A stretch of 64,000 bases of DNA from Microbacterium sp. CBA3102 (GTDB lineage Bacteria; Actinomycetota; Actinomycetes; Actinomycetales; Microbacteriaceae). Below the pieces are notes generated by a model. The model worked only from the letters and a program-made list of their open reading frames with translations, had not been told where the DNA came from and searched no databases. The position numbers and the translations under genes were made by a program. Numbering within the stretch: position 1 is the first letter of the stretch; every line of letters starts with the position of its first letter. The DNA lies in assembly GCF_007954505.1 (NCBI RefSeq), contig NZ_CP042412.1, positions 930,001 through 994,000 on the forward strand. Direction: 5' to 3'. Below are positions 7,092 through 47,727 of the stretch, in pieces.

Positions 7092-8420
7092 TCAGGTACC
7101 GAGGCGCTCGATGCGGGTGACCAGTGCCGCGCGCTTCGGCGACCGTGCGGGGAGCATCTCCAGGGCCAGGCGCAGCACCTCGGCGTCGCCCTGCCCCTCG
7201 GGGATCTCGGCGTAGGAGAGCAGAACGTCGAGGCTGGCCTCCGAGAGCATCACCTCACGCAACGCCCCGCGCACCGTCTCGCGGAACTCCTCCACCCCGG
7301 GCGAGGTCGACTCGGGCAGCACGGGCCCGCGGTACGCCGTCAGTGCGACACGGTGAGCACCGCGGTCGAGCAGCGAGAGCACGTCATGCGCGTCGGTGTC
7401 GAGGGCGACGGGCAGCCGATAGGGACGGGACTCCGGCACGAGGTCGGGGGCCGTGCGCTCGAGCACCTTGCGCAGACGCACCATCTCCGGGCGCAGCGTG
7501 TCGGGCGAGACCCCTTCGCCGTAGACAAGCTCGCACAGGCGCTCTGCCGAGAGTCCCTGACGGTGGACCGCGAGCATCAGGAGGATGGCGGCATGTCGCG
7601 CGCTCAGGTCGATCATGGCTTCGCCGTGCGCCGACTCGGTCTCCAAGCGCGCACGGTCGCGTCCGAGAACGTGCAGCGTCGCCCGGGCGGTCGCCGGGAT
7701 ACGCGCCTTCGAGGGGGTCGACCGCGAACGCGGCGTCTCGCTCCTCGCCCGGAGGCGCGAGACCATCAGCTCGGACTCCACGGCCCGAGCCGTCGCATCA
7801 ACCAGCAACCGTGCCTGCGGGGACACGACCTCGGGTCCGCCGGTGATGTCGATCACTCCGAGCACACGCTTCGTCTCCGGGTCGCGCACAGGTGCGGCGG
7901 TGCACGACCACGGATGCACGAGCCTGTTGTAGTGCTCGGCACCGCGGATCTGCACCGACTGCTCCAAGGCGAGGGCCGTGCCGGGCGCACTCGTCCCGAC
8001 CGCATCCTCCGACCAGTTCGCACCGGCGACGAAGCCCATGTCGTCCGTGAGCGAGCGCAGCTGTTCGTCGCCTTCGATCCACAGCAACCGACCCGCCTGG
8101 TCACCGACGGCGATGATCACCCCGGTGTCCTCGCTCGAGCCCGGCAACAGCAGGGCGCGGATCATGTCCATCGCGGAGGCGAGCGGGTGGGCGAGCCGAT
8201 ACTCCTCCAGTTCGTCGCTGATCAACTCCAGCGGCGGTGTGTCTTCGGGGGCGACACGGCGGCGCCACGAGCGTTCCCACGACTCGCGGACGAGCGGACG
8301 CACCCCCTGCAGCCGTCGGTCGTCGAGATTGCCGGCGAGCAGTTCCTCGTGCGCGCGCTCGACGAGAAGGCGCGATGTCGCCGGAAGGGACTCGCGGGAT
8401 ACCTGCCACGGCGCAGACAC
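7092..8420 (-). CDS. GAF-domain transcriptional regulator (AcoR-like, actinobacterial type)
   Basis: 442 residues. The N-terminal half resembles the sensory part of Aco[18 protein letters not shown] near residue 40, then a GAF domain with [41 protein letters not shown] and [11 protein letters not shown] (about 100-215). Unlike AcoR it has no sigma-54 AAA+ domain. The C-terminal half instead carries a winged-helix-like region ([30 protein letters not shown]) and a tail resembling bacterial transcriptional-activator domains. This architecture beside ALDH plus DUF779 suggests it senses an aldehyde or alcohol and activates the operon; the ligand is unknown. Confidence 0.8.
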
Positions 8421-34204: not shown

Positions 34205-35810
34205 TCTCGGACGCGCGAGCGCCATCATCGGAGCCGGCACCATGGTCTCCCGCGTCACGGGGCTGCTGCGCAGCATCGTGCTGGTCGGCGTGATCGGCTC
34301 GGTCAACTCCGAAGCGGCTGACGCCTTCGCGGTCGCCAATCAGCTTCCCAACAGTGTCTTCTCACTGATCTCCGTGGGGATCCTCACCGCCGTGATCGTG
34401 CCGCAGATCGTCAAGGCTTCGGCTGACGCCGACGGCGGAAACGCGTACATCTCGAAGCTGTTCACCCTCGGGACGGTCGTCCTCGTGGTGATCGCGGGTG
34501 CGGCGACCGTCGCCTCACCCTGGCTCGTCTGGCTCTCTGCGGACGGAGATCCCGCACAGCTGGCCCTGGCGACCGCGTTCGCCTACTGGTGCATGCCCCA
34601 GATCCTCTTCTACGGTCTCTACGCTTTGCTCGGTGAGGCGCTGAACGCCCGCCGCATCTTCGGGCCGTTCACGTGGGCACCCGTGGTCAACAACGTGATC
34701 TCCATCATCGGATTCCTCCTGATCGCCGCTTTCTTCGGGGGGCCGCTGACGGACGTTCCTGACTGGACGCCGGAGATGATCGCCGCCCTGGGCGGGACGG
34801 CGACACTGGGGATCGTGGTTCAGGCCGGAGTCCTTCTCCTGTTCTGGCGGCGGACGGGACTCTCCTTGAAGCCCGACTTCCGCTGGCGCGGTGTAGGTCT
34901 CGGCGCCACCGGCCGCCTCGCGGGTTGGACTCTCCTCATGGCAATCGCGAGCCTCACCGCGGGAACCATCCAGGGACGCATCGCCTTCGCCGCTGCCGGC
35001 GACGGGGCGTCGGTGGCCACGATGCAGTATGCCTGGCTCATCTTCATGCTGCCGTACTCCATCATCGTGCTCTCGATCGGTACGCCGTATTTCACACAGA
35101 TCAGCGAGCACGCCGCAGCGGGTCGAGATGATGAAGTCCGCGCGGACATCACGCGCAGCATCCGGACGCTCTTCCTCTTCATCGCTGTCGCCATGGCCGC
35201 GCTCATCGCGGCCATCATTCCCGCTTCTCGCGTCTTCACCGAGAACGCCGCCGATGCCGAAGCCGCCGCGCTCGTCCTCCTCTGCTATCTGGTGAGTCTG
35301 CTTCCGCTCACCGTCCTCTTCATCGTGCAACGGACCTTCTACGCATACGGCGACACACGCACGCCGTTCTGGTTCACCCTGTTTCAGAGCGTTCTCATCG
35401 TCATCACGGCTCTCGTCGCCCAAGGGCTCTACGTCGCCGACATCATCCCGGTCACGGCGTTGGCGGCCGCCATCGCGCTCGGTCAGTCGCTTGCGAGCAC
35501 GATCCAGACAATCGTCGCCAGCTGGCTCCTGCACCGGAAGATCGGTGGACTGCGAATCGGAACCTGGGTGGCAGCCATCCTGCGGTTCGCGGTCGCGGCC
35601 ATCCCCGCCGGGTTCGCGGGCTGGGGGGTGTTCCTCCTTCTCGGCGGCCCGAGCGGCTGGACCACGGACAACAAGATCTTCGGAGCCGTCGGCACCGCGA
35701 TCATCGGCCTCGCCGTGGTCGTGGTCTACGTCGCCATCCTCGCCGCCATGCGGGCCCCGGAGCTCAAGGCGGCCGGTGGCCTGGTGCGCAGGTTCCTCCC
35801 CGGACGCTGA
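34197..35810 (+). CDS. murJ: Lipid II flippase MurJ (MviN)
   Basis: 537-residue MOP-superfamily flippase that moves lipid II across the cytoplasmic membrane for peptidoglycan synthesis. Fourteen or so helices; typical motifs are AIIGAGTMVSRVTGLLRSIVL (N-terminus), DAFAVANQLPN, and ALLGEALNARRIFGPFTWAPVVNN near 145-168, plus RTFYAYGDTRTPFW (about 380-393). GTG 34197 inside the end of the DUF6049 gene (8-base overlap) is the natural start; a longer frame would add arginine-rich residues. It lacks the long kinase-like and extracellular C-terminal extensions found on mycobacterial MviN. Confidence 0.93.
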   Translation: MTSLGRASAIIGAGTMVSRVTGLLRSIVLVGVIGSVNSEAADAFAVANQLPNSVFSLISVGILTAVIVPQIVKASADADGGNAYISKLFTLGTVVLVVIAGAATVASPWLVWLSADGDPAQLALATAFAYWCMPQILFYGLYALLGEALNARRIFGPFTWAPVVNNVISIIGFLLIAAFFGGPLTDVPDWTPEMIAALGGTATLGIVVQAGVLLLFWRRTGLSLKPDFRWRGVGLGATGRLAGWTLLMAIASLTAGTIQGRIAFAAAGDGASVATMQYAWLIFMLPYSIIVLSIGTPYFTQISEHAAAGRDDEVRADITRSIRTLFLFIAVAMAALIAAIIPASRVFTENAADAEAAALVLLCYLVSLLPLTVLFIVQRTFYAYGDTRTPFWFTLFQSVLIVITALVAQGLYVADIIPVTALAAAIALGQSLASTIQTIVASWLLHRKIGGLRIGTWVAAILRFAVAAIPAGFAGWGVFLLLGGPSGWTTDNKIFGAVGTAIIGLAVVVVYVAILAAMRAPELKAAGGLVRRFLPGR

Positions 35811-35827
35811 GCCACCCGCACTGGCGG

Positions 35828-35854
35828 GGGAATGCCTCGCGGTTACCATGGGTT
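35828..35854 (+). promoter_or_regulatory. SigR/SigH-type promoter for trxB
   Basis: GGGAAT at 35828-35833, exactly 18 bases, then GTT at 35852-35854, 48 bases before trxB. This equals the thiol-oxidative-stress sigma-factor consensus (GGAAT-N18-GTT) known from Streptomyces SigR and mycobacterial SigH, whose targets include trxB. Confidence 0.75.
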
Positions 35855-35901
35855 GAAGCACTCGAAGGTCATTCGACTGCAGTTTCTAAGACGGAGAGCA
35901 C

Positions 35902-36882
35902 ATGCGTCAGGTCATCATCATCGGCTCCGGCCCCGCCGGATTCACGGCTGCCATCTACGCGGCCCGAGCGAACCTCAAGCCGCTGCTCATCGCGAGCTCG
36001 GTCGAAGTCGGCGGCGAGCTGATGAACACCACCGAGGTCGAGAACTATCCCGGGTTCCCCGAAGGCATCCAGGGCCCGGAACTGATGGCGAAGTTCCAGG
36101 AGCAGGCGGAGAAGTTCGGCACCGAGGTCGTCTACGACGACGTCACCGAGCTGCAGCTCGACGGACCCGTCAAGAAGGTCGTCCTCGGCAGCGGTGTCGA
36201 GCACGAGGCTCAGTCCGTGATCTATGCGACGGGCTCGGCGTACCGCAAGCTCGGCATCGAGGGCGAAGAGCGCCTGTCCGGTTACGGCGTCTCCTGGTGC
36301 GCCACGTGCGACGGGTTCTTCTTCCGCGAGAAGACGATCGCGGTCGTCGGCGGCGGCGACTCGGCGATGGAGGAGGCGACCTTCCTCACGCGTTTCGCGG
36401 AGAAGGTCTACGTCATCCACCGCAAGGACACGCTGCGTGCCTCGAAGATCATGCAGGAGCGCGCGTTCGCGAACGAGAAGATCGAGTTCGTGTGGAACAG
36501 CGAGGTCGCCGAAGTCCTCGGTGGCGACTCCGTCAGCGGCGTGCAGCTGCGCTCGACGGTCGACGGCACCCTGCGCGACCTGCCGATCGATGGTCTGTTC
36601 ATCGCGATCGGTAACGACCCGCGCACCCACCTCGTGCACGACAAGCTCGAGTTGACGCCCGAGGGCACGATCTGGGTCGACGGCCGCTCGTCGAAGACCT
36701 CCGTGCCCGGTGTGTTCGCCGCGGGTGACGTCATCGACCCCACGTACCGTCAGGCCATCACCGCTGCCGGCACGGGCACGGTCGCCGCCCTCGACGCGGA
36801 GCACTTCCTCGCGGACCTCGAGGACGCGTCCGTCGAGGTCCCGGCTGCGGAGGCCGCCGAGATCCTCACCGCCTCGGCATAG
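35902..36882 (+). CDS. trxB: Thioredoxin reductase
   Basis: Reduces thioredoxin with NADPH through FAD. 326 residues: FAD motif IIIGSGPAGFTAA (5-17), redox-active CATC at 133-136 (SWCATCDGFFF), NADPH motif VVGGGDSAMEEATFL (about 148-162) and C-terminal FAD motif GVFAAGDVIDPTYRQAITAAGTG (in parts, near 273-295). ATG follows GGAGAG. trxA lies 64 bases downstream with its own promoter. Confidence 0.97.
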   Translation: MRQVIIIGSGPAGFTAAIYAARANLKPLLIASSVEVGGELMNTTEVENYPGFPEGIQGPELMAKFQEQAEKFGTEVVYDDVTELQLDGPVKKVVLGSGVEHEAQSVIYATGSAYRKLGIEGEERLSGYGVSWCATCDGFFFREKTIAVVGGGDSAMEEATFLTRFAEKVYVIHRKDTLRASKIMQERAFANEKIEFVWNSEVAEVLGGDSVSGVQLRSTVDGTLRDLPIDGLFIAIGNDPRTHLVHDKLELTPEGTIWVDGRSSKTSVPGVFAAGDVIDPTYRQAITAAGTGTVAALDAEHFLADLEDASVEVPAAEAAEILTASA

Positions 36883-36885
36883 TCC

Positions 36886-36912
36886 GGGAACACTTTCCCC
36901 TCGTCGGCTGTT
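36886..36912 (+). promoter_or_regulatory. SigR/SigH-type promoter for trxA
   Basis: GGGAAC at 36886-36891, 18 bases, GTT at 36910-36912, starting three bases after the trxB stop and 34 bases before trxA. Same architecture as the trxB promoter, so trxA has independent stress-induced transcription. Confidence 0.7.
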
Positions 36913-36946
36913 GTAGCAGACGAACCTCGAATCAAGGAGATCTCTG

Positions 36947-37270
36947 ATGAGTGCAAAGGCTACGAGCCAGGCGACCTGGGAGCAGGACGTTCTGCAGGCC
37001 GACGGTCCCGTGCTGGTGGACTTCTGGGCCGAGTGGTGTGGACCGTGTCGTATGGTCGCGCCGGTCCTGGACGCGATCCAGGCGGACAACCCCGACAAGA
37101 TCACCATCCTCAAGCTCAACGTCGACGAGAACCCCCAGCTGGCCATGAAGTACCAGATCACGTCGATCCCGGCGATGAAGGTCTTCCAGGGCGGAGAGGT
37201 CAAGACGACCATCATCGGCGCCAAGCCGAAGCCCGCGCTCGAGAAGGACCTCGCCGCGTTCATCGGCTGA
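36947..37270 (+). CDS. trxA: Thioredoxin
   Basis: 107-residue cytoplasmic thiol reductant. Active site WCGPC at residues 30-34 (VDFWAEWCGPCRMVAPVLD), cis-proline in ITSIPAMKVF near 73-77, and GAKPK near the C-terminus. AAGGAGAT lies ahead of the ATG. It is the end of the trxB-trxA unit, closed by a strong terminator. Confidence 0.97.
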   Translation: MSAKATSQATWEQDVLQADGPVLVDFWAEWCGPCRMVAPVLDAIQADNPDKITILKLNVDENPQLAMKYQITSIPAMKVFQGGEVKTTIIGAKPKPALEKDLAAFIG

Positions 37271-37282
37271 CGTTCTGAGCCG

Positions 37283-37324
37283 AAAGGGCCGCACCTCCCG
37301 GGGAGGTGCGGCCCTTTCTCGTTT
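37283..37324 (+). terminator. Rho-independent terminator of trxA
   Basis: AAAGGGCCGCACCTCC (37283-37298) pairs with its complement at 37302-37317 over a 3-base loop, followed by CTCGTTTT. It may also serve the convergent RpiR gene. Confidence 0.85.
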
Positions 37325-37343
37325 TCTGCGCGCTCAGGCCGTG

Positions 37344-38210
37344 TCAGTCGATGCGGTGCTCGGTCACGGCATCGAAGGTGAGCCGCAGGTTGTCAGCGAT
37401 GCGGTCGTACTCGGCCTGCACGATCCGCGTGAACAAGAAGTCGAGCACCGTGAGCTGGGCGATGCGACTCGCCATCGCGCCGGAGCGGAACGTCGATTCC
37501 GAGACCGCTGTCAGCAACACCAGCGCGGAGGCCTGGGCGAGGGGCGAGCGGGGGTTGTTCGTGATGGCGATCGTGAGCGCACCGGCACGCGCCGCCGTCT
37601 CCACAGACTGCACGATCTCGAGCGTGCGCCCCGAGTGGGAGATGGCGATCGCGACGTCGCGATCGTCCAGGAGAGCCGCGCCCGTGAGCGCCAGGTGGAG
37701 ATCGGTGCGCGCTTGCGCCCAGAATCCCCCTCGATGCAGCTTCTGTTCGAGATCCATCGCGGCGAGCCCGCTGGAGGCCGCGCCGTAGATGTCGATCCGC
37801 CGTGCCTCGCGGATCGCGGAGACGCAGCGCTCCAGTTCCTCGACGTCGATCTGTCGGGCCGTCTGCTCGATCGCCGCAGCCTCGGAGAACGCGACTTTGC
37901 GCACCGTCGTCGTCGCATCATCGTCGCGGTCGACATCCGCTCCCGAGACGCGAAAGCGCTCGCGATCCGAAGCGCTGCGGGTCAGTTCCCCGGCGAGCGC
38001 GAGCCGCAACTCCGGGTAGCCGACGAATCCGATGCGCTGCGCGAATCGCGCGATGCTCGCCGGAGACGTGCCGCACGCGACGGCGAGCTGGGTGATGGAG
38101 GCATCGACGACCGACTGAGGGTGGGCAAGGACGTGATCGCTGATGCGGGCCTCCGTCGCTGTCAGGCCCGATCGTCGCTGGTGGATGGCTGTCACGACGC
38201 TGTTCGGCAT
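37344..38210 (-). CDS. RpiR/MurR-family regulator (HTH plus SIS domain)
   Basis: 288 residues. N-terminal HTH_6 (SGLTATEARISDHVLAHPQSVVDASITQLAVACGTSPASIARFAQRIGF, in parts, 14-62) and a C-terminal SIS sugar-phosphate-sensing domain (RIDIYGAASSGLAAMDLEQKLHRGG; VAIAISHSGRTLEIVQ, about 140-215). This family controls phosphosugar catabolism; MurR of E. coli and Bacillus senses MurNAc-6-phosphate. It is divergent from the sugar ABC operon and the locus also encodes a muramidase, which favours a MurNAc-type ligand (inference). Confidence 0.88.
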   Translation of the reverse strand: MPNSVVTAIHQRRSGLTATEARISDHVLAHPQSVVDASITQLAVACGTSPASIARFAQRIGFVGYPELRLALAGELTRSASDRERFRVSGADVDRDDDATTTVRKVAFSEAAAIEQTARQIDVEELERCVSAIREARRIDIYGAASSGLAAMDLEQKLHRGGFWAQARTDLHLALTGAALLDDRDVAIAISHSGRTLEIVQSVETAARAGALTIAITNNPRSPLAQASALVLLTAVSESTFRSGAMASRIAQLTVLDFLFTRIVQAEYDRIADNLRLTFDAVTEHRID

Positions 38211-38237
38211 CCCCTCATGATGTCAGGACTGTTTCGT

Positions 38238-38257
38238 GTTGAAAACATTTTTTCGAC
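38238..38257. promoter_or_regulatory. Candidate RpiR operator
   Basis: GTTGAAAA (38238-38245) and TTTTCGAC (38250-38257) form a nearly perfect dyad with a 4-base spacer in an unusually AT-rich patch between the divergent regulator and ABC genes. RpiR proteins typically bind such A/T-tract dyads. A further GTGAAAATTATTG follows at 38270. Confidence 0.5.
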
Positions 38258-38440
38258 GATGCTTGCGCTTGTGAAAATTATTGTCCAGAGTGGCTAGTGC
38301 GCGTCGGGCTTGTGCACGATCCGCCGAACGACAGAGGTGTCCACCGCGCCCCCGCCACACGGGCACATCCGGGTCTCCTCTGTTCCCAGCAGGGGGAGTC
38401 GCCATCGCGAGCGGCTCTCACACCATTCGAGAGGAACCTC

Positions 38441-39727
38441 ATGCGACACAAATCGACGCGCTATGCGCTCACCGCCGCCGTTCTCGCCTCGGGCCTCGCC
38501 GTGGCCGGCTGTGCTCCGGCATCCTCCGGCGCGGACGGCGGGGGCGAAGATGTCACGCTCAAGATCTGGTCCTGGCAGGCATCGTCCTCTCCCAAGTGGG
38601 AGGCCGTGTTCGACGTCTACGAGAAGTCGCACCCTGGAGTGACGGTGGAGTTCGAAGGCTTCCAGCCCACCGAGTACAACCAGATCCTGGCCACCGGTCT
38701 CGAAGGCCGCGACGGTCCCGACATCGCCATGCTCCGCGCCTACGGCGGTGTGCAGCCCGCGATCCAGTCCGAGCAGATCGTGCCCATCGACGACATCGTC
38801 GACGGGCTGGATCAGTTCGATCCGACGGTCCTGCGCGCCGCCCAGGGCAAGGACGACGGAAAGACCTACGGCGTCCCCTTCGCGTACCAGACGATGCAGA
38901 TGTTCTACAACAAGACACTGTTCGACGAGAAGGGTCTCGAGGAGCCGACCGACTGGGACGAGTTCATCGACCTTCAGGAGACGCTCCTCGACGAGGGCAT
39001 CACCCCTATGGCTCTCGGAGCCCGGGAGGACTGGGTGCTGCCGATGTTCCACGACATCGTCGGCTCTGCCCGCTACGGCGGAGCGGACTTCGAGGAGAAG
39101 GTGCTCAGCGGAGAGGCCGACTTCACCGACCCCGCCTACGTGTCTTCGCTGCAGATCGTCAAGGACATGCAGAAGTACCTCGACAAGAATGTCAACGCGA
39201 TCGCGGTCGCCGATGCAGTGCTGCAGTTCACCTCGGGTCAGGCGGCGCAGTGGCCCGGTGGTTCCTTCGACCTGCCGACCTTCCAGAACTCGGCGCCCGA
39301 CACCGAGTGGGGCGTCTACGAAGTCCCGCCGGCACCGGACAGCGCGCTCGATCACGCCGTGACGCCCGGCTACGCGGACGGAAGCTTCGGGATCAACGCC
39401 TCCAGCGACAACCAGGAGGCGGCGACGGAGTTGCTCAACTGGATGACCACCGAGGAGTTCGGTCAGCTCGTCGCCGACGAGGTCGACCAGTTCTCGGCGC
39501 TTCCGGGGGTCACCTACTCCGACCCGCTCATGCAGGAGATGAACGAGCAGTACACGGCCAACCCGGCCCCGTACCTGCTCCTCGTCGACTTCCGCTACGG
39601 CGACCCCACCGGAACGGCGGTGCTCGGACCGGACATCCAGGCGATGTTCCTCGGAGAGAAGACGCCCGAGCAGCTCGGTAATGACCTGCAGTCCGGCGTC
39701 TCCACCTGGTTCACGCCCGCTTCCTGA
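38441..39727 (+). CDS. Sugar ABC transporter substrate-binding lipoprotein (CUT1)
   Basis: 428 residues; lipobox LAVAGC (Cys 24) after a Sec signal. SBP_bac_1 family: LKIWSWQASSSPKWEAVFDVYEK, then HPGVTVEFEGFQPTEYNQIL, DGPDIAMLRAYGG and VPFAYQTMQMFYNKTLFDEKGL (in parts). It binds a mono- or oligosaccharide outside the cell and passes it to the two permeases downstream. No ATPase gene is in the operon, normal for CUT1 systems sharing an MsiK-type ATPase elsewhere. With NamZ and an AmiE-like enzyme next door, MurNAc or a GlcNAc-MurNAc fragment is the likely ligand. ATG follows GAGAGGA. Confidence 0.88.
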   Translation: MRHKSTRYALTAAVLASGLAVAGCAPASSGADGGGEDVTLKIWSWQASSSPKWEAVFDVYEKSHPGVTVEFEGFQPTEYNQILATGLEGRDGPDIAMLRAYGGVQPAIQSEQIVPIDDIVDGLDQFDPTVLRAAQGKDDGKTYGVPFAYQTMQMFYNKTLFDEKGLEEPTDWDEFIDLQETLLDEGITPMALGAREDWVLPMFHDIVGSARYGGADFEEKVLSGEADFTDPAYVSSLQIVKDMQKYLDKNVNAIAVADAVLQFTSGQAAQWPGGSFDLPTFQNSAPDTEWGVYEVPPAPDSALDHAVTPGYADGSFGINASSDNQEAATELLNWMTTEEFGQLVADEVDQFSALPGVTYSDPLMQEMNEQYTANPAPYLLLVDFRYGDPTGTAVLGPDIQAMFLGEKTPEQLGNDLQSGVSTWFTPAS

Positions 39728-39734
39728 TCCCCAC

Positions 39735-39767
39735 GTGGTGGGGGTGCCACTCCGGCACCCCCACCAC
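39735..39767 (+). terminator. Intercistronic hairpin after the sugar SBP gene
   Basis: GTGGTGGGGGTGCC (39735-39748) and its exact complement (39754-39767) with a 5-base loop sit 8 bases after the SBP stop and 18 before the permease. It matches the arrangement in the first ABC operon and likely favours SBP mRNA. Confidence 0.6.
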
Positions 39768-39785
39768 AGAGCGAAGGACACTCCC

Positions 39786-40745
39786 ATGGCTCTGACCCTC
39801 TCCCTCCGGCGCCGGAAGACTACGCGCCGCCCCCGCACGGGCATCGCACTGACCACTCCCACCGCGGCGCTGTTCGTACTCCCTGCCGCCGTGTTGTTCG
39901 CGGTGCTGATCCTGTATCCGATGCTCGCCGCCCTCAGCTACTCCTTCTTCGACTGGCAGGGAACCCGGCAGGGCGGCTTCGCGGGAGTCGGCAACTACAT
40001 CACGCTCCTCACGACGGAGCCCTACGCTTCTGAGCTGTGGAACGCGTTCGGCCACAATCTGCTGCTGTTCGGCGGTGCCCTCGTGTTCCAGAACTCCCTT
40101 GGCCTCGGCATCGCGACGCTGCTGCACCGGCGCAAACGCACCAAGCGGTTCTTCCAGACGATCTTCGCTCTGCCCTACCTGGTCAGCCCCATGGTCATCG
40201 GCTACCTGTGGTCGCTCATGCTGTCGCCACTGTTCGGGCCGGTGAACGCCATCCTCCGGGGCGTGGGACTCGAAAGCCTCGCCCTGCCGTGGCTCGGTGA
40301 TCCCCAGCTGGCGATCTGGGTCATCGTGCTCGTGAGCGCCTGGCAGTGGATCGGTTTCCCGATCCTGCTCTACGGTGCAGCGCTGGGCGGCATTCCGGAG
40401 GAGATCGAAGAGGCGGCGTCTCTCGACGGCGCCACCGCCGGCAAGCGCTTCCGCTACATCACCTTGCCGATGCTGACTCCGACGATCGGCATCATCACCG
40501 TGCTCACCTTCATCGGGAGCATGGAAGCGATGGCGATCCCGTTCGCCCTGGCCGGATCGAATGGCGCGCCGGCGGGATCCACCGATGTGATGATGCTGCT
40601 CTTCTACCGCACGGCCTTCGAGTCGGGGAATCCGAACTCGATCGGCGTCTCCTCCGCGCTCGCCACCGTCCTGTTCATCTTCATCATGGTCATCTCGGTC
40701 GTGATCACCTCGACCATGCGTCGCGCCGAACGAAAGCTGTTCTGA
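39786..40745 (+). CDS. Sugar ABC transporter permease (MalF/LacF-type, CUT1)
   Basis: 319-residue permease; basic N-terminus then TAALFVLPAAVLFAVLILYPMLAALSYSFFDW. The EAA loop is EEIEEAASLDGATAGKRFRYITLPML (in parts, about 214-240), typical of the first CUT1 permease. ATG 39786 follows GAAGGACACTCC. Its stop overlaps the ATG of the next permease by one base (TGATG). Confidence 0.92.
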   Translation: MALTLSLRRRKTTRRPRTGIALTTPTAALFVLPAAVLFAVLILYPMLAALSYSFFDWQGTRQGGFAGVGNYITLLTTEPYASELWNAFGHNLLLFGGALVFQNSLGLGIATLLHRRKRTKRFFQTIFALPYLVSPMVIGYLWSLMLSPLFGPVNAILRGVGLESLALPWLGDPQLAIWVIVLVSAWQWIGFPILLYGAALGGIPEEIEEAASLDGATAGKRFRYITLPMLTPTIGIITVLTFIGSMEAMAIPFALAGSNGAPAGSTDVMMLLFYRTAFESGNPNSIGVSSALATVLFIFIMVISVVITSTMRRAERKLF

Positions 40746-41662
40746 TGAGCACTGTCCTCGATACCCGCCCCGAGCCCACCACCGAGGCGATCGTCTCCGG
40801 CCGTCCCACAGTTCCACGCCGTCGGTCGCAACGCACCTCCGACACCCCTTTCATCGGGAGACTGTTCGCGAACGTCTTCCTGTGGGGCTATGCGCTGATC
40901 GCCATCGGTCCGCTGCTGCTGATGGTCAACAACTCGCTGCGCACACAGCAGCAGATCGCGACCGAGCCGCTCGGACTCCCGGTTCCTCCGACGTTCACGA
41001 GTTTCCAGAGCGCGTGGATCACGGCGTCCTTCGACACCTACTTCGTCAACTCGATCACCGTCACCGTGGGCTCTGTCATCGTGACCACCGTCGTCTCCGT
41101 GCTCGCGGCCTACGCGTTCGCGCGAGCCCGCGCGAAGTTCTTCCGAGGCATCGAGGCGGTGTTCCTGTCGGGTCTGATGCTTCCGGTACACCTCGCGATC
41201 CTGCCGCTGTTCTACCTCCTCGATTCACTCAGGATGACCAGCAACGTCTTCAGCCTGATCCTGGTCTACGGAGCTCTCGGCATCCCGTTCACGACGTTCG
41301 TCCTCACGGTGTTCTTCCGCGCGCTGCCGATCGAGCTCGAGGAAGCAGCTCGTATCGACGGTGCGGGTCCGTTCCGGACCTTTGTGCAGATTCTGCTTCC
41401 GCTCGTCCGGCCCGCTCTCGCCACGGTCATCGTGTTCCGCTTCGTGCCGGTGTGGAACGACTTCTTCTACCCGCTGATCCTTCTGCGCGACCGCGACTCG
41501 TACACACTGCCCGTGGGGCTCACACGATTCTTCGGCGAGTACTCGACGGACTGGCCGCAGCTCTTCGCCGGCCTGACGATCGCGACGATCCCGCTGGTGG
41601 TGCTGTTCTTGCTGGCCACGAAGCAGATCATCAGCGGTCTCACTTCGGGCATGAGCAAGTGA
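40745..41662 (+). CDS. Sugar ABC transporter permease (MalG/LacG-type, CUT1)
   Basis: 305-residue second permease. After a proline- and arginine-rich cytoplasmic N-terminus, six helices follow; FQSAWITASFDTYFVNSITVT and the EAA loop IELEEAARIDGAGPFRTFVQILLPLVRPAL (in parts, about 198-228) are CUT1 signatures. Translationally coupled to the first permease and 7 bases from the serine hydrolase, so all belong to one operon. Confidence 0.92.
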   Translation: MSTVLDTRPEPTTEAIVSGRPTVPRRRSQRTSDTPFIGRLFANVFLWGYALIAIGPLLLMVNNSLRTQQQIATEPLGLPVPPTFTSFQSAWITASFDTYFVNSITVTVGSVIVTTVVSVLAAYAFARARAKFFRGIEAVFLSGLMLPVHLAILPLFYLLDSLRMTSNVFSLILVYGALGIPFTTFVLTVFFRALPIELEEAARIDGAGPFRTFVQILLPLVRPALATVIVFRFVPVWNDFFYPLILLRDRDSYTLPVGLTRFFGEYSTDWPQLFAGLTIATIPLVVLFLLATKQIISGLTSGMSK

Positions 41663-41669
41663 TCCCTCG

Positions 41670-42686
41670 ATGGTGAACGGTGCCCCGGGTTCCGCCTGGG
41701 CCGCACTGCGGAGCATGGCGGGCGTCGATACGCTCGAGCTGCTCGGCACGCTGTCCGCCGACGATCCGACGCCCGTCAGCGAGGAGAGCCTGTTCGACCT
41801 CGCCTCGGTCACCAAGGTGTTCACCGCTGTCGCCGCATTGCGTCTGGTCGATGCCGGGCTCATCGCGCTCGACGAGCCGTGCGCCGCTGTGCTGTCGATC
41901 GGTTCCGGTCCGGGCTCCGGAGCGATCACGCTCCGACAGCTGCTCCTGCACACCTCCGGACTACCTGCGGAAGGCGGGATGTGGCGCTCGGGACTGCGTG
42001 GCGCAGCGCTCCAGCGTGCGGTCGTGGCAGCAGATCTCGTGAGCGGACCTGGTACCGAACACCGATACTCGGACGTGGGATTCATCGCCGTCGGCACGCT
42101 TCTCGAACGTGTATCGGGCCGCCCGCTCGCACAGCTCATCGCCGAAGTCGCGGCGCTGCTCGGCGCCGACACTCTCACGTGGAGTCCGGATCCTCGCCAT
42201 AGTGTCGCCACCGAGATCCAGCCGCACCGTGGTCTCGTCCGCGCCGAGGTGCACGATGAGCTCGCTTCAGCGCTTGGTCGGCCCGCGGGGCACGCCGGGC
42301 TGTTCGGCACCGTGCACGATGTCGCCGCGCTGGCGCGCATGATCCGTGACGACGGCGGCGGCCCGCGCCGACGTGTGCTCTCCGCCGCGTCCGCCCGGAT
42401 GCTCACGGTTCCCGCGGTCCGGGCCGACGGGTTCGAGCAGGCGCTGGGATTGCGTGTGCGCCAGCGGTCGTGGATGGGTGACGGCGAAGCGGTCGGTCAT
42501 ACCGGATTCACTGGGACGGCATTCGCCGTGAATCCGCACACGGGGGACTTCGGCGTGCTGCTCCTCAACCGTGTGCATCCCACGCGGGAGGACGCGGACG
42601 TCACCGGCGTACGGAGGGAGTTCTTCGCCTTCCTGTCCCCCGACAAGGCTTCGGATCCTCTGGATGGCGACCCTCAGCGCGGATAG
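41670..42686 (+). CDS. Beta-lactamase-fold serine hydrolase (class C/AmiE-like)
   Basis: 338 residues without a signal peptide, so probably cytoplasmic. The catalytic SxxK is SVTK in FDLASVTKVFTAVAALRL (Ser 46), the second motif is YSD in GTEHRYSDVGFIAVGTLLE, and the third is HTG in EAVGHTGFTGTAFAVNP (near 274). The fold covers penicillin-binding proteins and esterases; AmiE of the Bacillus mur operon, an N-acetylmuramyl-L-alanine amidase, is of this type. Cytoplasmic location after the importer suggests removing peptide from imported muropeptides (inference). It overlaps the convergent NamZ gene by 13 bases. Confidence 0.8.
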   Translation: MVNGAPGSAWAALRSMAGVDTLELLGTLSADDPTPVSEESLFDLASVTKVFTAVAALRLVDAGLIALDEPCAAVLSIGSGPGSGAITLRQLLLHTSGLPAEGGMWRSGLRGAALQRAVVAADLVSGPGTEHRYSDVGFIAVGTLLERVSGRPLAQLIAEVAALLGADTLTWSPDPRHSVATEIQPHRGLVRAEVHDELASALGRPAGHAGLFGTVHDVAALARMIRDDGGGPRRRVLSAASARMLTVPAVRADGFEQALGLRVRQRSWMGDGEAVGHTGFTGTAFAVNPHTGDFGVLLLNRVHPTREDADVTGVRREFFAFLSPDKASDPLDGDPQRG

Positions 42687-43861
42687 AGCAGCACGTCGTC
42701 ACCGTAGAACTCGTCGACGCGTTGGGGCGCGCTGTGGAGACGGTCGAACGCGCGCTCCCCGTTGATCGCCTCGCGAAGCGAGGACGAGCCCCAGAGTCGG
42801 TCTAGCGCATAGCCGACGTCTCCGGGGTCCAGTCGTTCGCCGGCATTCAGGCTGCGCACGTGTTCTGGAGCGGCGGCCCGGGCGCACTGGAGAATCGCGA
42901 GTGCAGTCCCCACAGGGTCATAGGTGCGGTAGTCGGAGATGTGCAGCTGAATGCCGCGCGCGGTTTCACCTGCGTGCTTGTGGAACACGGGCTGGAACGC
43001 GATCTCCCGGATCTGCACGCCGGGGAGGTCCCGTTCTCGAAGCGCTGCTGCGAACTCGGCGGGGAGGAAGGGCGCCCCGATCGTCTCGAAGGGGCGCGTC
43101 GTTCCGCGTCCTTCGCTCAGGGTCGTCCCCTCCACCAGTCCCGTGCCGGCGAAGGCATAGACGGAATCGAGCGTGGGGATGTTCGGCGACGGCGGTACCC
43201 AGGCCAAACCCGTCTCCGTCCAGTCGGCGGCGGGGTTCCAGTTCTCCAGAGTGATCACGCGCAGGTCGATGCTCAACCCCTCCTCCGCGAGGTCTCGGAC
43301 CGCGAACAGACGTGCGAGCTCGCCTGCTGTCAGGCCGTGTCGCTGGTGGATGTCGCTGCGTCCGACGAAACTCGTGAACCGGGATTCGCTCACACCGGGG
43401 CCGCTGAGCACCGCACCGCCGAGGGGATTGGGGCGGTCGAGGACGGTGAAGGGGAGCCCGAGGCGCGCCGCACTGCGCATGGCGTCGTACATGGTCCAGA
43501 TGTAGGTGTAGAAGCGCACCCCGATGTCCTGCATGTCGAAGACGAGCGCATCGACGCCGGACTCGAGGATCATCTCGTCGAGACGGTCTCCCTCGGCCAG
43601 ATAGGTGTCGCTGAAGGGAAGCCCTGAGCGTGCGTCTCGCTCGATGGATGTGCTCTCCCCCGCTTGGACGGAGCCGTCCAAGCCGTGTTCAGGACCGAAC
43701 AGATGCTGGAGGGGGACACCAGCACTCTGGAGGGCGTCTATGTTGCGGGAGAGGTCAGGCATCGTTCCCGTGAAGTTCGTGAGGAGGCCGATGCGCGACC
43801 CGGCGAGGAGTTGCGGCTCGCTGCTCGCACGCTCGGCTCCGATACGCGTGCGTTGTGCCAT
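42674..43861 (-). CDS. namZ: Exo-beta-N-acetylmuramidase NamZ (DUF1343 / YbbC family)
   Basis: 395 residues covering both DUF1343 parts: GSRIGLLTNFTGTMPDLSRNIDAL near the start, LFGPEHGLDGSVQAGE (about 53-68), GVDALVFDMQDIGVRFYTYIWTMYDAM (in parts, 101-128), LDRPNPLGG, WVPPSPNIPTLDSVYAFAGTGLVEGTTLSEGRGTTRPFE (in parts, 216-254) and IQLHISD. NamZ releases MurNAc from the non-reducing end of glycan strands. No signal peptide is visible, so it may act on imported disaccharides inside the cell, unlike the secreted Bacillus protein. It has its own promoter and faces the ABC operon. Confidence 0.87.
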   Translation of the reverse strand: MAQRTRIGAERASSEPQLLAGSRIGLLTNFTGTMPDLSRNIDALQSAGVPLQHLFGPEHGLDGSVQAGESTSIERDARSGLPFSDTYLAEGDRLDEMILESGVDALVFDMQDIGVRFYTYIWTMYDAMRSAARLGLPFTVLDRPNPLGGAVLSGPGVSESRFTSFVGRSDIHQRHGLTAGELARLFAVRDLAEEGLSIDLRVITLENWNPAADWTETGLAWVPPSPNIPTLDSVYAFAGTGLVEGTTLSEGRGTTRPFETIGAPFLPAEFAAALRERDLPGVQIREIAFQPVFHKHAGETARGIQLHISDYRTYDPVGTALAILQCARAAAPEHVRSLNAGERLDPGDVGYALDRLWGSSSLREAINGERAFDRLHSAPQRVDEFYGDDVLLYPR

Positions 43862-43921
43862 GAGGAACTCCCCCGTGTCGACGAGCGGTTATCTTTTTAC
43901 CAGTCTGGCACAGGCGATGAA

Positions 43922-43949
43922 TATTATGTGCAGAATCCGAAAAGGCAAG
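43922..43949 (-). promoter_or_regulatory. Sigma-70-type promoter for namZ
   Basis: On the minus strand TTGCCT (43949-43944), a 16-base spacer, and TAATAT (43927-43922) precede the namZ start by about 60 bases. The -10 lies in an AT-rich patch that stands out locally. Confidence 0.55.
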
Positions 43950-43973
43950 GCCCGCCCGTGACCACCCGCGCGC

Positions 43974-44309
43974 TCAGGAAGCGTCGGCGACGGTGGGGTC
44001 CCAGCGACGGTGGCGCTGGGTCTCGTCCAGCAGGCCCCACACGGCAGAGGTCAGCTCGGGGTACTCCAGGGCGATCTGTCGCAGCACCCGATAGTGCCGG
44101 GCGGCATTGGGTCGCACGCCGTCGTTCGCGTTGATGTTGTCGGCCCGGAGGAGGTACACGACGAGCTCGTCGATGCTCGGCAGGTCTTCCATGAACTCCC
44201 AGGGGTCTTCGCCCCCGAGAAGACGCTCCTGGATGAGAACCGCGAGTTCGTCAGCCGCCTCGGCGCGCAGCACTTCCAGGCTGGCACGGCGCTGTACGGA
44301 CTCGGACAT
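43974..44309 (-). CDS. Small acidic conserved-looking protein, unknown
   Basis: 111 residues, soluble, mostly helical, rich in Glu/Asp and Leu: RASLEVLRAEAADELAVLIQERLLGGEDPWEFMEDLPSIDELVVYLLRADN (in parts) followed by RHYRVLRQIALEYPELTSAVWGLLDE. I do not recognise a domain. It begins 9 bases after the MFS gene ends on the same strand and is probably cotranscribed. Its real coding nature is supported by regular codon use and a clear start. Confidence 0.65.
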   Translation of the reverse strand: MSESVQRRASLEVLRAEAADELAVLIQERLLGGEDPWEFMEDLPSIDELVVYLLRADNINANDGVRPNAARHYRVLRQIALEYPELTSAVWGLLDETQRHRRWDPTVADAS

Positions 44310-44318
44310 GCGTCAAGC

Positions 44319-45767
44319 CTACGTCTCCCGTACGACCTTCCGGCGCCGTACGGCCAGTTCATCGCTCATCTCCTCGAGCTCCTTGCCCTTCGTCTCCGGC
44401 ACCTTGAAGAACACGAAGAAGAACGAGAGGAGAGCGAAGAACGCATAGAACCCGTAGGCGAACGTGAGTCCGATCTCCGCAAACGCGGGGAACGTCGTCG
44501 AGATGAAGAAGTTGGCCACCCACTGGGCCGCGGCGGCGACGGCGAGAGCTCCCGCGCGGATCGAATTGGGGAAGATCTCGCCGAGGAGGACCCACACCAA
44601 CGGACCCCAGCTCGCCCCGAAGAAGACCACGAAACCGTTCGCGCAGATCAAGGCGATGGTCGCCCAGGGGTCAGGGAGGGTCGCCGTCCCCTGCGCATCG
44701 AGTGTCCCGAACGAGAACGCGAGCGCCATGAGTCCCAGCGTCACGGTCATACCGACCGAGCCGACGAGCAGCATGATGCGCCGGCCGACCCTGTCGACGA
44801 GGAGGATGGCGACGATGGTCACCACGATGTTCGTGACCGACGTGATCACCGACGTGAGCAATGCGCTGGATTCGTCGAAGCCGACCGACTGCCACAGGGT
44901 TGTCGAGTAGTAGAAGATCACGTTGATGCCCACGAACTGCTGGAACACCGAGAGCAGGATCCCCACCCAGACGATCGGCTTGAGGCCGAGACGGCTTCCG
45001 CGCAGGTCGCGCAGCGACTCCGAGCGTTCGGTGTCGATCGTGCCGGTGATCTCCGTGATCTTCGCATCGACGTCGATCGTCCCCGTGACGGTCTCCAGCA
45101 CCTCTGCGGCACGCTTCAACTCGCCCTTGCGCACCAGGTAGCGCGGTGATTCCGGCAGACGCAGCGACATGATGCCGTAGACCAGCGCGGGGATGGCCTC
45201 GACGATGAACATCCAGCGCCACGCGGTGAGTCCCCACAGCGGCTGATCCGCGGCCCCGGCGAGGCCCGCGAGCAGAGCATCGGAGAGCAGCGCGGCGAAG
45301 ATACCGGTCACGATCGCGAGTTGCTGCAGTGACCCCAGACGACCACGAATCGCGGCCGGCGATACCTCGGCGATGTAGGCCGGGGCGATGACGGATGCCG
45401 CACCCACCCCGATTCCGCCGATCACACGCCAGACGATCAGGTCGACGACACTGAACGCGAGCCCGGAACCGATCGCGGAGACGAAGAACAGCGTCGCAGC
45501 GCCCACCATCACCGGGATGCGTCCGTACTTGTTGGACACCGGTCCGGCGAACCATGCACCGACCGCACAGCCGATCAACGCCGACGACACCGCGAAGCCC
45601 TTGAGAGCCGTTCCGAGATCGAATCCCGAGACGTCACCCGCGAGCGCGTCGACGGCGCCGTTGATCACCGCGGTATCGAAACCGAACAGGAATCCGCCCA
45701 ACGCCGCGGCGATACTGACCGCGATCACACGGCGTTGGACGCTTGCGGAACCCTCTGCTGCGGACAT
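44319..45767 (-). CDS. MFS sugar porter (proton symporter)
   Basis: 482-residue sugar-porter family transporter with twelve helices. Signatures: AAALGGFLFGFDTAVINGAVDAL (helix 1), the helix-5 region GRLGSLQQLAIVTGIFAALL, PESPRYLVRKG in the central loop (about 220-230), QQFVGINVIFYYSTTLWQSVG after helix 7 and VPETKGKELEEM at the C-terminus. It would import a hexose, pentose or inositol. ATG 45767 was chosen over a longer frame because the family's N-terminus begins just after it. Confidence 0.93.
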   Translation of the reverse strand: MSAAEGSASVQRRVIAVSIAAALGGFLFGFDTAVINGAVDALAGDVSGFDLGTALKGFAVSSALIGCAVGAWFAGPVSNKYGRIPVMVGAATLFFVSAIGSGLAFSVVDLIVWRVIGGIGVGAASVIAPAYIAEVSPAAIRGRLGSLQQLAIVTGIFAALLSDALLAGLAGAADQPLWGLTAWRWMFIVEAIPALVYGIMSLRLPESPRYLVRKGELKRAAEVLETVTGTIDVDAKITEITGTIDTERSESLRDLRGSRLGLKPIVWVGILLSVFQQFVGINVIFYYSTTLWQSVGFDESSALLTSVITSVTNIVVTIVAILLVDRVGRRIMLLVGSVGMTVTLGLMALAFSFGTLDAQGTATLPDPWATIALICANGFVVFFGASWGPLVWVLLGEIFPNSIRAGALAVAAAAQWVANFFISTTFPAFAEIGLTFAYGFYAFFALLSFFFVFFKVPETKGKELEEMSDELAVRRRKVVRET

Positions 45768-45829
45768 GACATTCCCCCCTCGTCGTCGAGATGACGCGAG
45801 TCTAAGGGACCGAAACGGCCCCGGGGATG

Positions 45830-46804
45830 TCATCGCGCCGAGCCGTAGCCGCTTTCGCCGAGCTCCTCGAGGATCCGATTGAGGTCCTGGATGGAAGCGA
45901 AATCAATCGTGACCTGGCCTTTACGAGCGCCGAGGGCGATCTTGACCCGTGTGTTCAGTCGGTCGCCGAGTTTGCCGGCCACCTCGTCGAGATACGCGCG
46001 GCGCGCCCCCGGGGTCGCCTTCGCCGACTTGCCGGCGGCCGGCTGCGCCTTCGCCGCCTCCTCCGTCGCGCGCACCGAAAGGTCTTCGTTCACGACCTTG
46101 TCGGCGAGGCGCTGCATCGACTCCGGAGTCTCGAGGCTGAGGATCGCGCGGGCATGTCCAGCCGTGAGCACTCCGGCTGCGACCCTCTGCTGCACGGGGA
46201 CGGGCAGCTTGAGCAGACGGATGGTGTTGCTGATCTGCGGACGCGAGCGACCGATCCGTGTGGCGAGCTCTTCCTGGGTGATGCCGAAGTCATCGAGCAG
46301 TTGCTGGTATGCCGACGCTTCTTCCAGCGGATTCAGCTCGGAGCGGTGCAGGTTCTCCAGGAGGGCGTCGCGCAAAAGGTCTTCATCGGCGGTGTCGCGG
46401 ACGATCGCGGGGATGACGTCGAGACCGGCCTCACGTGCGGCACGGGTACGCCGCTCCCCCATGATGAGCTCGTAGTCGCCTGTCGCGTTCTTGCGGACGA
46501 CCACGGGCTGCAGCACACCGAACTCGCGGACGCTGTGCACGAGTTCCGCCAGGTCATCGGCATCGAAATGCGTACGCGGCTGTCGGGGGTTCGCGACGAT
46601 CGAGTTCGGATCCACCTGGATCAGGTGGATTCCGGGCACCTCTTCGAGCTCAGGAGTCTCGGAATCCGGACCGATCGTCGCCTCCGTCTCCGCCGGTCGC
46701 AGACTGGATCCGGGGAAGAAGACGTCGACGGGACGCTCCGCCTGATCTGCGGTGGGGATCAGCGCCCCGATTCCCCGACCCAGCCCTGTGCGCTTCGCCA
46801 TCAT
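45830..46804 (-). CDS. parB: Chromosome-partitioning protein ParB
   Basis: 324-residue CTPase/DNA-binding protein that loads on parS and spreads. N-terminal MAKRTGLGRGIGALIP, CTP-binding box NPRQPR and GERRTRAAREAGL (about 130-165), HTH LATRIGRSRPQISNTIRLLKLP (about 205-226), GHARAIL and a C-terminal dimerisation end. ATG 46804 overlaps the parA stop (ATGA); a second ATG follows directly. Its targets are the eight parS sites just upstream of parA. Confidence 0.95.
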   Translation of the reverse strand: MMAKRTGLGRGIGALIPTADQAERPVDVFFPGSSLRPAETEATIGPDSETPELEEVPGIHLIQVDPNSIVANPRQPRTHFDADDLAELVHSVREFGVLQPVVVRKNATGDYELIMGERRTRAAREAGLDVIPAIVRDTADEDLLRDALLENLHRSELNPLEEASAYQQLLDDFGITQEELATRIGRSRPQISNTIRLLKLPVPVQQRVAAGVLTAGHARAILSLETPESMQRLADKVVNEDLSVRATEEAAKAQPAAGKSAKATPGARRAYLDEVAGKLGDRLNTRVKIALGARKGQVTIDFASIQDLNRILEELGESGYGSAR

Positions 46805-47727
46805 TTCTCCTTGCTCTGCGTCGCGATGCGCGACGCGATCTCGACGGCAGCCTCGCGGTAGGCGATCGCGCCGGCGGACTGCCCATCGTAGGCGATCACC
46901 GTCTGGCCGAAACTCGGGGCCTCCGATACTCGGACGGACCGAGGGATCACCGTCTCCAGCACCTGATCCGGGAAGTGTGTGCGCACTTCTTCCGCGACCT
47001 GCTGCGCGAGGCGCGTCCGTCCGTCGAACATGGTCAGCAGGATCGTCGAGAGGTGAAGAGCCGGGTTCAGGTGCTTCTGGATCATCTGGATGCTCCCGAG
47101 GAGCTGGCTCAGACCCTCCAGCGCGTAGTACTCGCATTGGATCGGGATGAAGACCTCGGATGCGGCCGTGAACGCATTGATGGTGAGCAGTCCGAGCGAA
47201 GGAGGGCAGTCGATGATGACGAAATCCATCGCGTTCTCGAGGAGGTAGTCCTCCAGTGCTCGACGAAGGCGGTGCTCCCTCGCCACCTGGGCGACCAACT
47301 CGATCTCCGCGCCCGCCAAGTGGATGGTGCTGGGTGCGCAGAAGAGGTTGGGGTCTTCCGGGCTCGGCTGCACGATCTCCGCGAGAGGGAACTCGTCGAT
47401 CAGGACGTCATAGACACTGGGGGTGTCCGCGCTATGGGGAACCCCCAGGGCAGTGGAGGCGTTTCCCTGCGGGTCGAGGTCGATGACCAGCACCTTCGCC
47501 CCCAGGCCAGCAAGCGCCGAGGCGATGTTGACAGCCGACGTGGTCTTGCCGACGCCGCCCTTCTGGTTGGAGACGGTCAGGACTCGGGTGTCCCCCGTGA
47601 ACTCCACCTTCGCTGCCTCAAGCGCGCGCCTCCGGGCAGAGAGGTCGGCGAGTTCCCGCGCGAGCGGTGTGTCCATCCCGAACGATTCGTTCGCCGATGT
47701 CTTCTCGGACTGTTTCACGTGAAACAT
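46801..47727 (-). CDS. parA: Chromosome-partitioning ATPase ParA (Soj)
   Basis: 308-residue Walker-type ATPase that segregates origins with ParB. Deviant Walker A KGGVGKTT at 56-63, Walker A' VLVIDLDPQGNASTALG, and Walker B IIDCPPSLGLLTINA are present. Remarkably its first codons ATG TTT CAC GTG AAA CAG form a full parS site, so the N-terminus reads MFHVKQ. If that N-terminal extension is unwanted, an in-frame Met at residue 18 is an alternative start. parB is coupled downstream. Confidence 0.94.
   Translation of the reverse strand: MFHVKQSEKTSANESFGMDTPLARELADLSARRRALEAAKVEFTGDTRVLTVSNQKGGVGKTTSAVNIASALAGLGAKVLVIDLDPQGNASTALGVPHSADTPSVYDVLIDEFPLAEIVQPSPEDPNLFCAPSTIHLAGAEIELVAQVAREHRLRRALEDYLLENAMDFVIIDCPPSLGLLTINAFTAASEVFIPIQCEYYALEGLSQLLGSIQMIQKHLNPALHLSTILLTMFDGRTRLAQQVAEEVRTHFPDQVLETVIPRSVRVSEAPSFGQTVIAYDGQSAGAIAYREAAVEIASRIATQSKEK
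47711..47726. other. parS site 1 (inside parA start)
   Basis: Exact 16-mer TGTTTCACGTGAAACA overlapping codons 1-6 of parA. Confidence 0.9.

Follow-up and report, generated by a model that had tools for sequence, protein, structure and literature searches.

In Bacillus subtilis, N-acetylmuramic acid (MurNAc) genes are grouped in the cluster murQ-murR-murP-amiE-nagZ-ybbC, in which MurQ acts on MurNAc 6-phosphate (MurNAc-6P), and MurP, a phosphotransferase system (PTS) permease, is described in the same source as the only MurNAc uptake system for recycling in Staphylococcus aureus and B. subtilis; Streptomyces coelicolor is listed there with MurQ and without MurP (PMC5061867). Here we analyze a candidate counterpart built around an ATP-binding cassette (ABC) importer in Microbacterium sp. 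CBA3102, whose genome is a single 3.886-Mb contig (C1). The window, meaning the whole 64,000-nucleotide stretch analyzed, is C1:930001-994000, and the cluster spans its positions 37344-43861, with a MurR/RpiR-family regulator gene on the minus strand, genes for a solute-binding protein (SBP), two permeases, and a hydrolase on the plus strand, and a convergent namZ gene on the minus strand. NamZ is an exo-muramidase that attacks MurNAc at the nonreducing end, and ybbC of the Bacillus cluster is presumably namZ. We propose, with a probability of about 0.8, that this cluster handles uptake and the first processing steps within a MurNAc scavenging regulon under MurR control, with processing predicted to be intracellular.

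The locus shares with the B. subtilis mur cluster MurR-family control, NamZ and AmiE-like enzymes, and MurQ in the pathway, and half of the homologous clusters that we found in other genera (9 of 18) also hold a glycoside hydrolase family 3 (GH3) gene in one cluster. It differs in having a CUT1-type ABC sugar importer and an ATP-dependent kinase instead of the MurP PTS, in the lack of signal peptides on NamZ and the hydrolase in the window, and in the placement of MurQ and the kinase at another locus. In the MurT-MurK-MurQ system of Tannerella forsythia, too, MurNAc enters the cell unphosphorylated and is then handled by a MurNAc kinase and MurQ, although MurT is described as a symporter of the major-facilitator type rather than an ABC importer and T. 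forsythia is a MurNAc auxotroph (PMC5790795, PMC10465942). A kinase of both MurNAc and GlcNAc is represented by MurK of Clostridium acetobutylicum (Reith et al. 2011, via PMC5790795), and ABC import of cell wall fragments by Agrobacterium YejBEF-YepA (PMC9790009). S. coelicolor SCO4305-4308 is likewise an actinobacterial MurR-MurQ cluster that lacks MurP, but no importer or NamZ is named for it in the available part of the account (PMC5061867). A 2026 preprint still ascribes mycobacterial MurNAc uptake to an unknown transporter (PMC13041923). Our literature search, with subscription papers mostly outside its reach, found no MurNAc ABC importer. Work on Clostridium may mention one.

Linkage of the importer to MurNAc genes

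Genomic context was analyzed in samples of 295 genomes from the genus, 296 from the class, and 396 from the order, drawn evenly from larger groups. An orthologue of the window SBP (80 to 100% identical) is present in 20 of the 295 Microbacterium genomes, and in all 20 a NamZ gene lies in the same neighborhood, while NamZ occurs in 12 of the 275 other genomes (Fisher p = 4e-23, with kinship ignored here and in the genome counts below). Three NamZ types can be told apart among the 32 NamZ-bearing genomes. The E type (9 genomes) is secreted, with a Tat-like signal, and lies beside a GH3 gene, with a PF00144 gene detected in seven of the nine (not in L049 and L054; L numbers denote loci and G numbers genomes). 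The F type (18 genomes) lies beside a MurR-SBP-permeases-hydrolase cluster. The A type (5 genomes) includes the window, which together with G252 supplies the two A-type members of the 20 linked cases; the other 18 are F type. MurQ and the kinase are inside the cluster itself in two of the 20 (L061 and L064).

MurQ tracks both partners. It was detected in 127 of 295 genomes: in all 26 that bear the importer, defined as SBP identity of at least 47% (a threshold set after the data were seen, which excludes a 41% SBP in G291 and a 43% second copy in G060), versus 101 of 269 others, and in 31 of 32 NamZ-bearing genomes versus 96 of 263 others, the sole NamZ genome without it (G163) being 76% complete. 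AnmK exceeded its cut-off in 83 of 295 genomes, with 22 of 23 among those with A- or F-type NamZ versus 61 of 272 for the rest, and 2 of 9 among those with the E type; the AnmK of G256 is split in two pieces.

Six Microbacterium loci with more distant SBPs (L086-L091; 47 to 60% identical) hold the regulator, MurQ, SBP, permeases, and kinase together without NamZ. When the order was searched with a profile of the SBP clade, 20 of its 396 sampled genomes gave a hit, and these represent 10 of 109 genera. Among 18 non-Microbacterium loci, the kinase is adjacent in 18 and MurQ in 17, and the remaining one (L170) ends at a contig end just upstream of the SBP gene. The first-pass annotation had made its proposal depend on the linkage of namZ and the hydrolase to this importer in other genomes; unlinked clusters do exist, but in them the importer is accompanied by MurQ and the kinase, so that the MurNAc assignment gains support. 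Taken with the shared operators described below, this linkage makes a role of the importer in MurNAc metabolism a well-supported prediction.

A predicted tandem operator shared by the pathway genes

Two conserved palindromes stand out in the aligned MurR-SBP intergenic regions of the F-type loci. From 30 sites in 15 loci we built a symmetrized 15-bp operator model, excluding L058, L061, L064, L077, and the window from training, and applied it as pairs 31 to 32 bp apart. In the 64-kb window, the best pair lies in the importer promoter (33.4) and the second best in the NamZ promoter (12.3); the third-best pair scores 4.6. The top pair in 40 shuffled windows reached 15.7, and in 150 further shuffled windows five pairs reached 12.3 and none reached 22.6, which is the score of the best pair at L017, the locus encoding the kinase and MurQ, where it starts at 8227 between the regulator and kinase-MurQ. 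When the promoter itself was shuffled, the observed score was reached 33 times in 20,000 for NamZ and once in 20,000 for the kinase. The rank of the NamZ promoter varied with the model: it was second in the window with the first, unsymmetrized model and outside the top four with the symmetrized single-site model. Relatives carry a stronger pair at the same place before NamZ, scoring 27.4 in each of L071, L075, and L076 and 16.8 in L077; in L071 this pair and one before a different importer (35.4) are the two best.

Of 30 loci examined, 26 have the partner site at a distance of 31 or 32 bp from the best site; in the other four the offsets are 18, 18, 20, and 30. All nine GH3-NamZ clusters found in the order have their two top-scoring pairs ahead of MurQ and ahead of GH3, and their third pair scores at most 1.9. 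The E. coli MurR equivalog model NF012026 scored 138.9 bits against the window regulator and so did not reach its cut-off of 408; by its sequence, the regulator is assigned to the MurR/RpiR family only. It is 41% identical to the regulator of L016, a second locus with MurQ, and 40% identical to that of L017.

Pathway genes elsewhere in the genome

As the first-pass annotation had noted, MurQ, a MurNAc kinase, and NagZ are not in the window, and neither they nor AnmK are in this cluster. The genome supplies candidates for all the components that it had suggested looking for. Two MurQ genes exceed the cut-off (C1:599737-600609 and C1:2139244-2140107), AnmK (C1:598616-599728) was found in addition to a MurK-like kinase, and two of six GH3 matches have a NagZ-type motif. 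The cluster itself has no ATPase gene; a UgpC/MsiK-type ATPase is encoded at C1:3824423-3825526 (468.6 bits, above the cut-off of 432), with no importer genes found beside it. A MurP-type PTS permease was not found in the genome, in line with the earlier suggestion that an ABC importer replaces the PTS. PTS uptake of MurNAc was ruled out, since the only PTS_EIIC found is of the mannitol type (583.7 bits, just under the cut-off of 589).

The second MurQ gene belongs to L017 (C1:2138250-2140122), more than 1 Mb from the window, where an RpiR regulator stands beside a BadF-type kinase-MurQ pair. This MurK-like kinase matches the solved MurNAc/GlcNAc kinase 8zo3 and also matches GlcNAc kinases, and the importer-linked kinase of L086 (287 of 330 residues compared) has 8zo3 as its best match. 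The first MurQ gene and AnmK lie in L016 (C1:594171-605164; L016:4171-15164), which reads RpiR regulator/SBP5-OppB-OppC-MurQ-AnmK-Ala-Glu-epimerase-like-PF00144-OppDF and is predicted to be a separate, second muropeptide cluster with a peptide-type importer. YejBEF-YepA is also a peptide-type importer, closer to L016 than to the window cluster.

Signal-less NamZ and hydrolase and the nature of the cargo

Both NamZ domains of the window protein exceed curated cut-offs, its PDB relatives include 4k05 and 4jja, and the polar residues E58, H59, D109, R116, E181, E244, and E250 (among others; window-protein numbering) are invariant across A-, E-, and F-type NamZ. An NCBIfam scan assigned no family to NamZ. 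Signal peptides were assessed by eye and with a hydropathy window. The absence of one from NamZ, already remarked in the first-pass annotation, stood up to inspection: the open frame has 404 codons for a 395-residue protein, and close orthologues have about 20 residues ahead of the core. The same is true of the hydrolase, which begins 7 bp past the end of the permease gene, with no earlier start codon in its frame. Among F-type NamZ, 7 of 18 (L058, L061, L062, L064, L067, L069, and L070) have no frame room for a signal peptide, and the start as taken is at most 10 bp from the MurR stop in all 18. L129, in the A clade, permits a longer and partly hydrophobic NamZ start. E-type proteins carry Tat-like signals.

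In a NamZ tree of 54 of 60 rows (L002-L004, the same or near-same records as L077, L075, and L076, were left out, as were L063, L067, and L068 by a length filter), the window protein falls in a clade of 18 A-type rows with support of 100/99; L009 and L141 are long branches. The statement that cytoplasmic NamZ arose twice proved too strong, for the free tree parts the A and F clades but a joint constraint was not rejected (AU p = 0.264). The hydrolase is 38% identical to the PF00144 gene of L142, which lies in a GH3-NamZ-MurR-MurQ-importer-kinase cluster; its best NCBIfam model is PBP4B (73.5 bits, under the cut-off of 385), and its AmiE likeness is at the PF00144 level only.

The lack of signal peptides and the linkage of NamZ suggest, with less certainty than the MurNAc assignment, that the cargo is MurNAc-GlcNAc or muropeptides rather than MurNAc alone. 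Since NamZ acts at nonreducing-end MurNAc, the relevant disaccharide would be MurNAc-GlcNAc and not GlcNAc-MurNAc, as the first-pass annotation had it. The alternative, an importer restricted to free MurNAc with NamZ and the hydrolase working on other fragments in the cytoplasm, is possible but the less probable of the two. GH3, NamZ, and PF00144 genes share a cluster with the homologous importer in 9 of the 18 other-genus loci (in L142, nine genes run head to tail), and all nine have Tat-like signals on both GH3 and NamZ, with three having one on the PF00144 protein as well, so that the importer there need carry MurNAc alone. The Opp-type locus L016 is a plausible second entry route for muropeptides, and in L126-L130, class-level relatives (family code f23), an Opp-type importer accompanies A-type NamZ, MurQ, and a PF00144 gene, which adds another kind of importer to those found with NamZ. 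Against uptake of free MurNAc only, two signal-less NamZ clades are tied to the CUT1 importer (linked in all 20 genomes), a related operator precedes the window NamZ, and the CUT1 SBPs nearest in fold bind oligosaccharides. Because clusters with secreted GH3 and NamZ surround the homologous importer in other genera, intracellular cleavage is a variant and not obligatory. Judged by gene content, the nine clusters correspond to the Bacillus mur cluster with a predicted ABC importer and kinase in place of the PTS.

The binding protein

The cluster has the composition of a CUT1 importer, with an SBP_bac_1 lipoprotein (lipobox LAVAGC, Cys24) and two BPD_transp_1 permeases. The AlphaFold2 model of the SBP (pLDDT, the per-residue confidence, 78.6; pTM, the predicted template modeling score, 0.77) has the chitin-oligosaccharide-binding protein NagB2 (7eho_B) as its closest solved fold (VIA Z, 40.0; root mean square deviation, 2.5; 378 aligned), and the nearest folds are binders of chitin, xylo-, and other oligosaccharides, with monosaccharide binders listed too. 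Foldseek and VIA-align do not discriminate ligands, as 1,000 of 1,000 chains scored Z of at least 8, and the NagB2 match thus indicates an oligosaccharide-type SBP and no more.

All 44 linked SBPs have Arg at position 385, and the four unlinked relatives that served as the only controls have Ser, Asp, Ser, and Ala there. The residue lies in a model loop with pLDDT below 50, and it may contact the lactyl carboxylate of MurNAc. Three SBP relatives without Arg385 (L092, L093, and L184) could import another amino sugar.

It is very improbable that the cluster imports GlcNAc or chitin oligosaccharides and that its muramic acid neighbors are incidental. Such a role would fit the presence of NagB2 among the nearest SBP folds and the match of the kinase to GlcNAc kinases, but linkage to MurQ recurs in all six of the more distant Microbacterium loci and in 17 of the 18 from other genera, the operators are common to kinase-MurQ and NamZ, and NagB2 has no Arg at the Arg385 position in the HMMER alignment, which is gapped there.

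Possible exchange of importer modules at the NamZ site

In the window (34143-47727), the NamZ site is flanked by murJ-trxB-trxA on one side and parB-parA on the other. At the same parB-trxB site in G186, which is of the same species, and in G256 and G160, A-type NamZ adjoins another CUT1 importer that comes with genes for a GNAT acetyltransferase and a PIG-L de-N-acetylase; NamZ likewise adjoins such an importer in L005 and in Leifsonia L006, and in the latter the opposite flank of NamZ is directly occupied by MurQ, kinase, and regulator genes homologous to those of L017. The ParB and epimerase queries used in these comparisons had internal stops from a wrong reading frame; ParB marks position here, and its identity values carry no meaning. 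The difference in importer module within one species suggests cassette replacement. This arrangement could mean that NamZ is a neighbor by descent, belonging with the GNAT-SBP-permeases-PIG-L module, which the MurR-importer-hydrolase cassette replaced: the other module stands beside orthologous NamZ at this site in L071 (same species), L075, L076, and L005, and beside NamZ elsewhere in L006. We regard such an origin as improbable, as the incoming cassette is itself linked to another NamZ clade in 18 other genomes and NamZ retains a tandem operator. The swap of one NamZ-linked importer for another rather suggests a shared function.

The GNAT-PIG-L arrangement beside A-type NamZ is seen at L071:9323-15559 and also in L075, L076, L005, and L006, and in L071 operators precede NamZ and GNAT. 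A role for the pair in handling N-glycolyl muramic acid is a guess. In the class sample of 296 genomes, 56 have NamZ, spread over 17 of 114 genera, and 20 NamZ places were examined. Six of the loci with A-type NamZ (L131-L136) have the regulator in five cases and PIG-L with GNAT in five.

Observations that weigh against the proposed role

A number of findings count against the proposal of a MurNAc regulon with intracellular processing. The neighborhood lacks NamZ in 6 of 26 importer-bearing Microbacterium genomes and in 9 of 18 other-genus clusters, and for this reason disaccharide uptake is not general for the importer. Conversely, L008, L137, and L143 have GH3-NamZ-PF00144-regulator-MurQ without this importer in the stretch examined, and the SBP relatives at 39 to 42% identity (L092, L093, and L184, the last a second hit in G634 at about 40%) lie beside a kinase without MurQ. 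The window NamZ operator is weak, at 12.3 (a set of 40 shuffled windows reached 15.7, once at most); of the 22.6 scored by the L017 pair, its second palindrome contributes 2.4; and the paired model found no such operator pair in L016, the Opp-type locus with MurQ and AnmK. Hexokinase 2e2n is a higher-scoring match to the kinase than 8zo3 is. For 11 of the 18 F-type NamZ genes the open frame continues upstream through the MurR gene, and the starts of these 11 are therefore assumed. Finally, PF00144 is a functionally broad family.

Organization of the cluster

The first-pass annotation had described six packed genes, all of which lie where it placed them and carry the domains that it named above Pfam cut-offs (Table 1). 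Its end point of 43949 extends beyond the namZ gene and takes in part of the NamZ promoter. NamZ is not part of the importer operon, because it is convergent with the hydrolase gene, the stop ends overlapping by 13 bp. A 111-residue open reading frame on the minus strand (window positions 43974-44309), between a XylE-like sugar porter and NamZ, is also present in L071 and L004 and has no Pfam family.

Table 1. Genes and predicted operators of the cluster, in window coordinates
Feature	Position	Strand	Details
MurR/RpiR-family repressor, HTH_6 and SIS, divergent from importer	37344-38210	-	Pfam HTH_6, 69.3 bits; SIS, 81.7 bits
Predicted tandem operator	38240-38286		Palindromes 38240-38254 and 38272-38286, 32 bp apart; paired-model score, 33.4
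CUT1 solute-binding lipoprotein (SBP)	38441-39727	+	SBP_bac_1, 116.8 bits
ABC sugar permease 1, MalF/UgpA-like	39786-40745	+	BPD_transp_1, 63.6 bits
ABC sugar permease 2, MalG/UgpE-like	40745-41662	+	BPD_transp_1, 59.2 bits
Beta-lactamase-fold hydrolase, AmiE-like candidate MurNAc-L-Ala amidase, no signal peptide	41670-42686	+	PF00144, 168.3 bits
NamZ, exo-beta-N-acetylmuramidase family, no signal peptide	42674-43861	-	NamZ_N, 219 bits; NamZ_C, 128.5 bits
Weaker predicted tandem operator, NamZ promoter	43887-43932		Palindromes 43887-43901 and 43918-43932, 31 bp apart; paired-model score, 12.3

Proposed pathway and implications

From the genes, domains, missing signal peptides, linkage, and operator motif, and from the failure to find a MurP-type PTS in the genome, we infer a substrate, an order of steps, an inducer, a match of regulator to operator, and a pairing with the ATPase. 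The SBP lipoprotein would catch a MurNAc-bearing fragment, most likely MurNAc-GlcNAc or small MurNAc(-peptide) pieces in addition to MurNAc, and the two permeases, powered by a shared MsiK-type ATPase encoded elsewhere, would import it unphosphorylated. In the cytoplasm, the AmiE-like hydrolase could strip L-Ala or the peptide and NamZ could free MurNAc from its GlcNAc partner. The MurK-like kinase of L017 would then convert MurNAc to MurNAc-6P, from which MurQ would form GlcNAc-6P and lactate, and MurNAc-6P may release MurR from the tandem operators.

On a broader scale, we lean only slightly toward the view that, in Micrococcales-type actinobacteria, the order to which this genome belongs, an ABC-type MurNAc import regulon with a tandem MurR-family operator replaces the MurP PTS, that Microbacterium moved the exo-muramidase and amidase steps to the cytoplasm and imports intact MurNAc-GlcNAc or muropeptides, and that two NamZ clades were recruited to the same importer. 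The Bacillus NamZ has a signal sequence, used in B. subtilis (PMC10559633); a cytoplasmic NamZ, if true, would be an unusual site of action for the family. An importer linked to MurQ, a MurNAc-type kinase, NamZ, and a predicted operator offers a concrete transporter family with a purifiable SBP and a testable Arg385, and it would show how MurNAc is recovered by bacteria that lack the usual means of taking it up.

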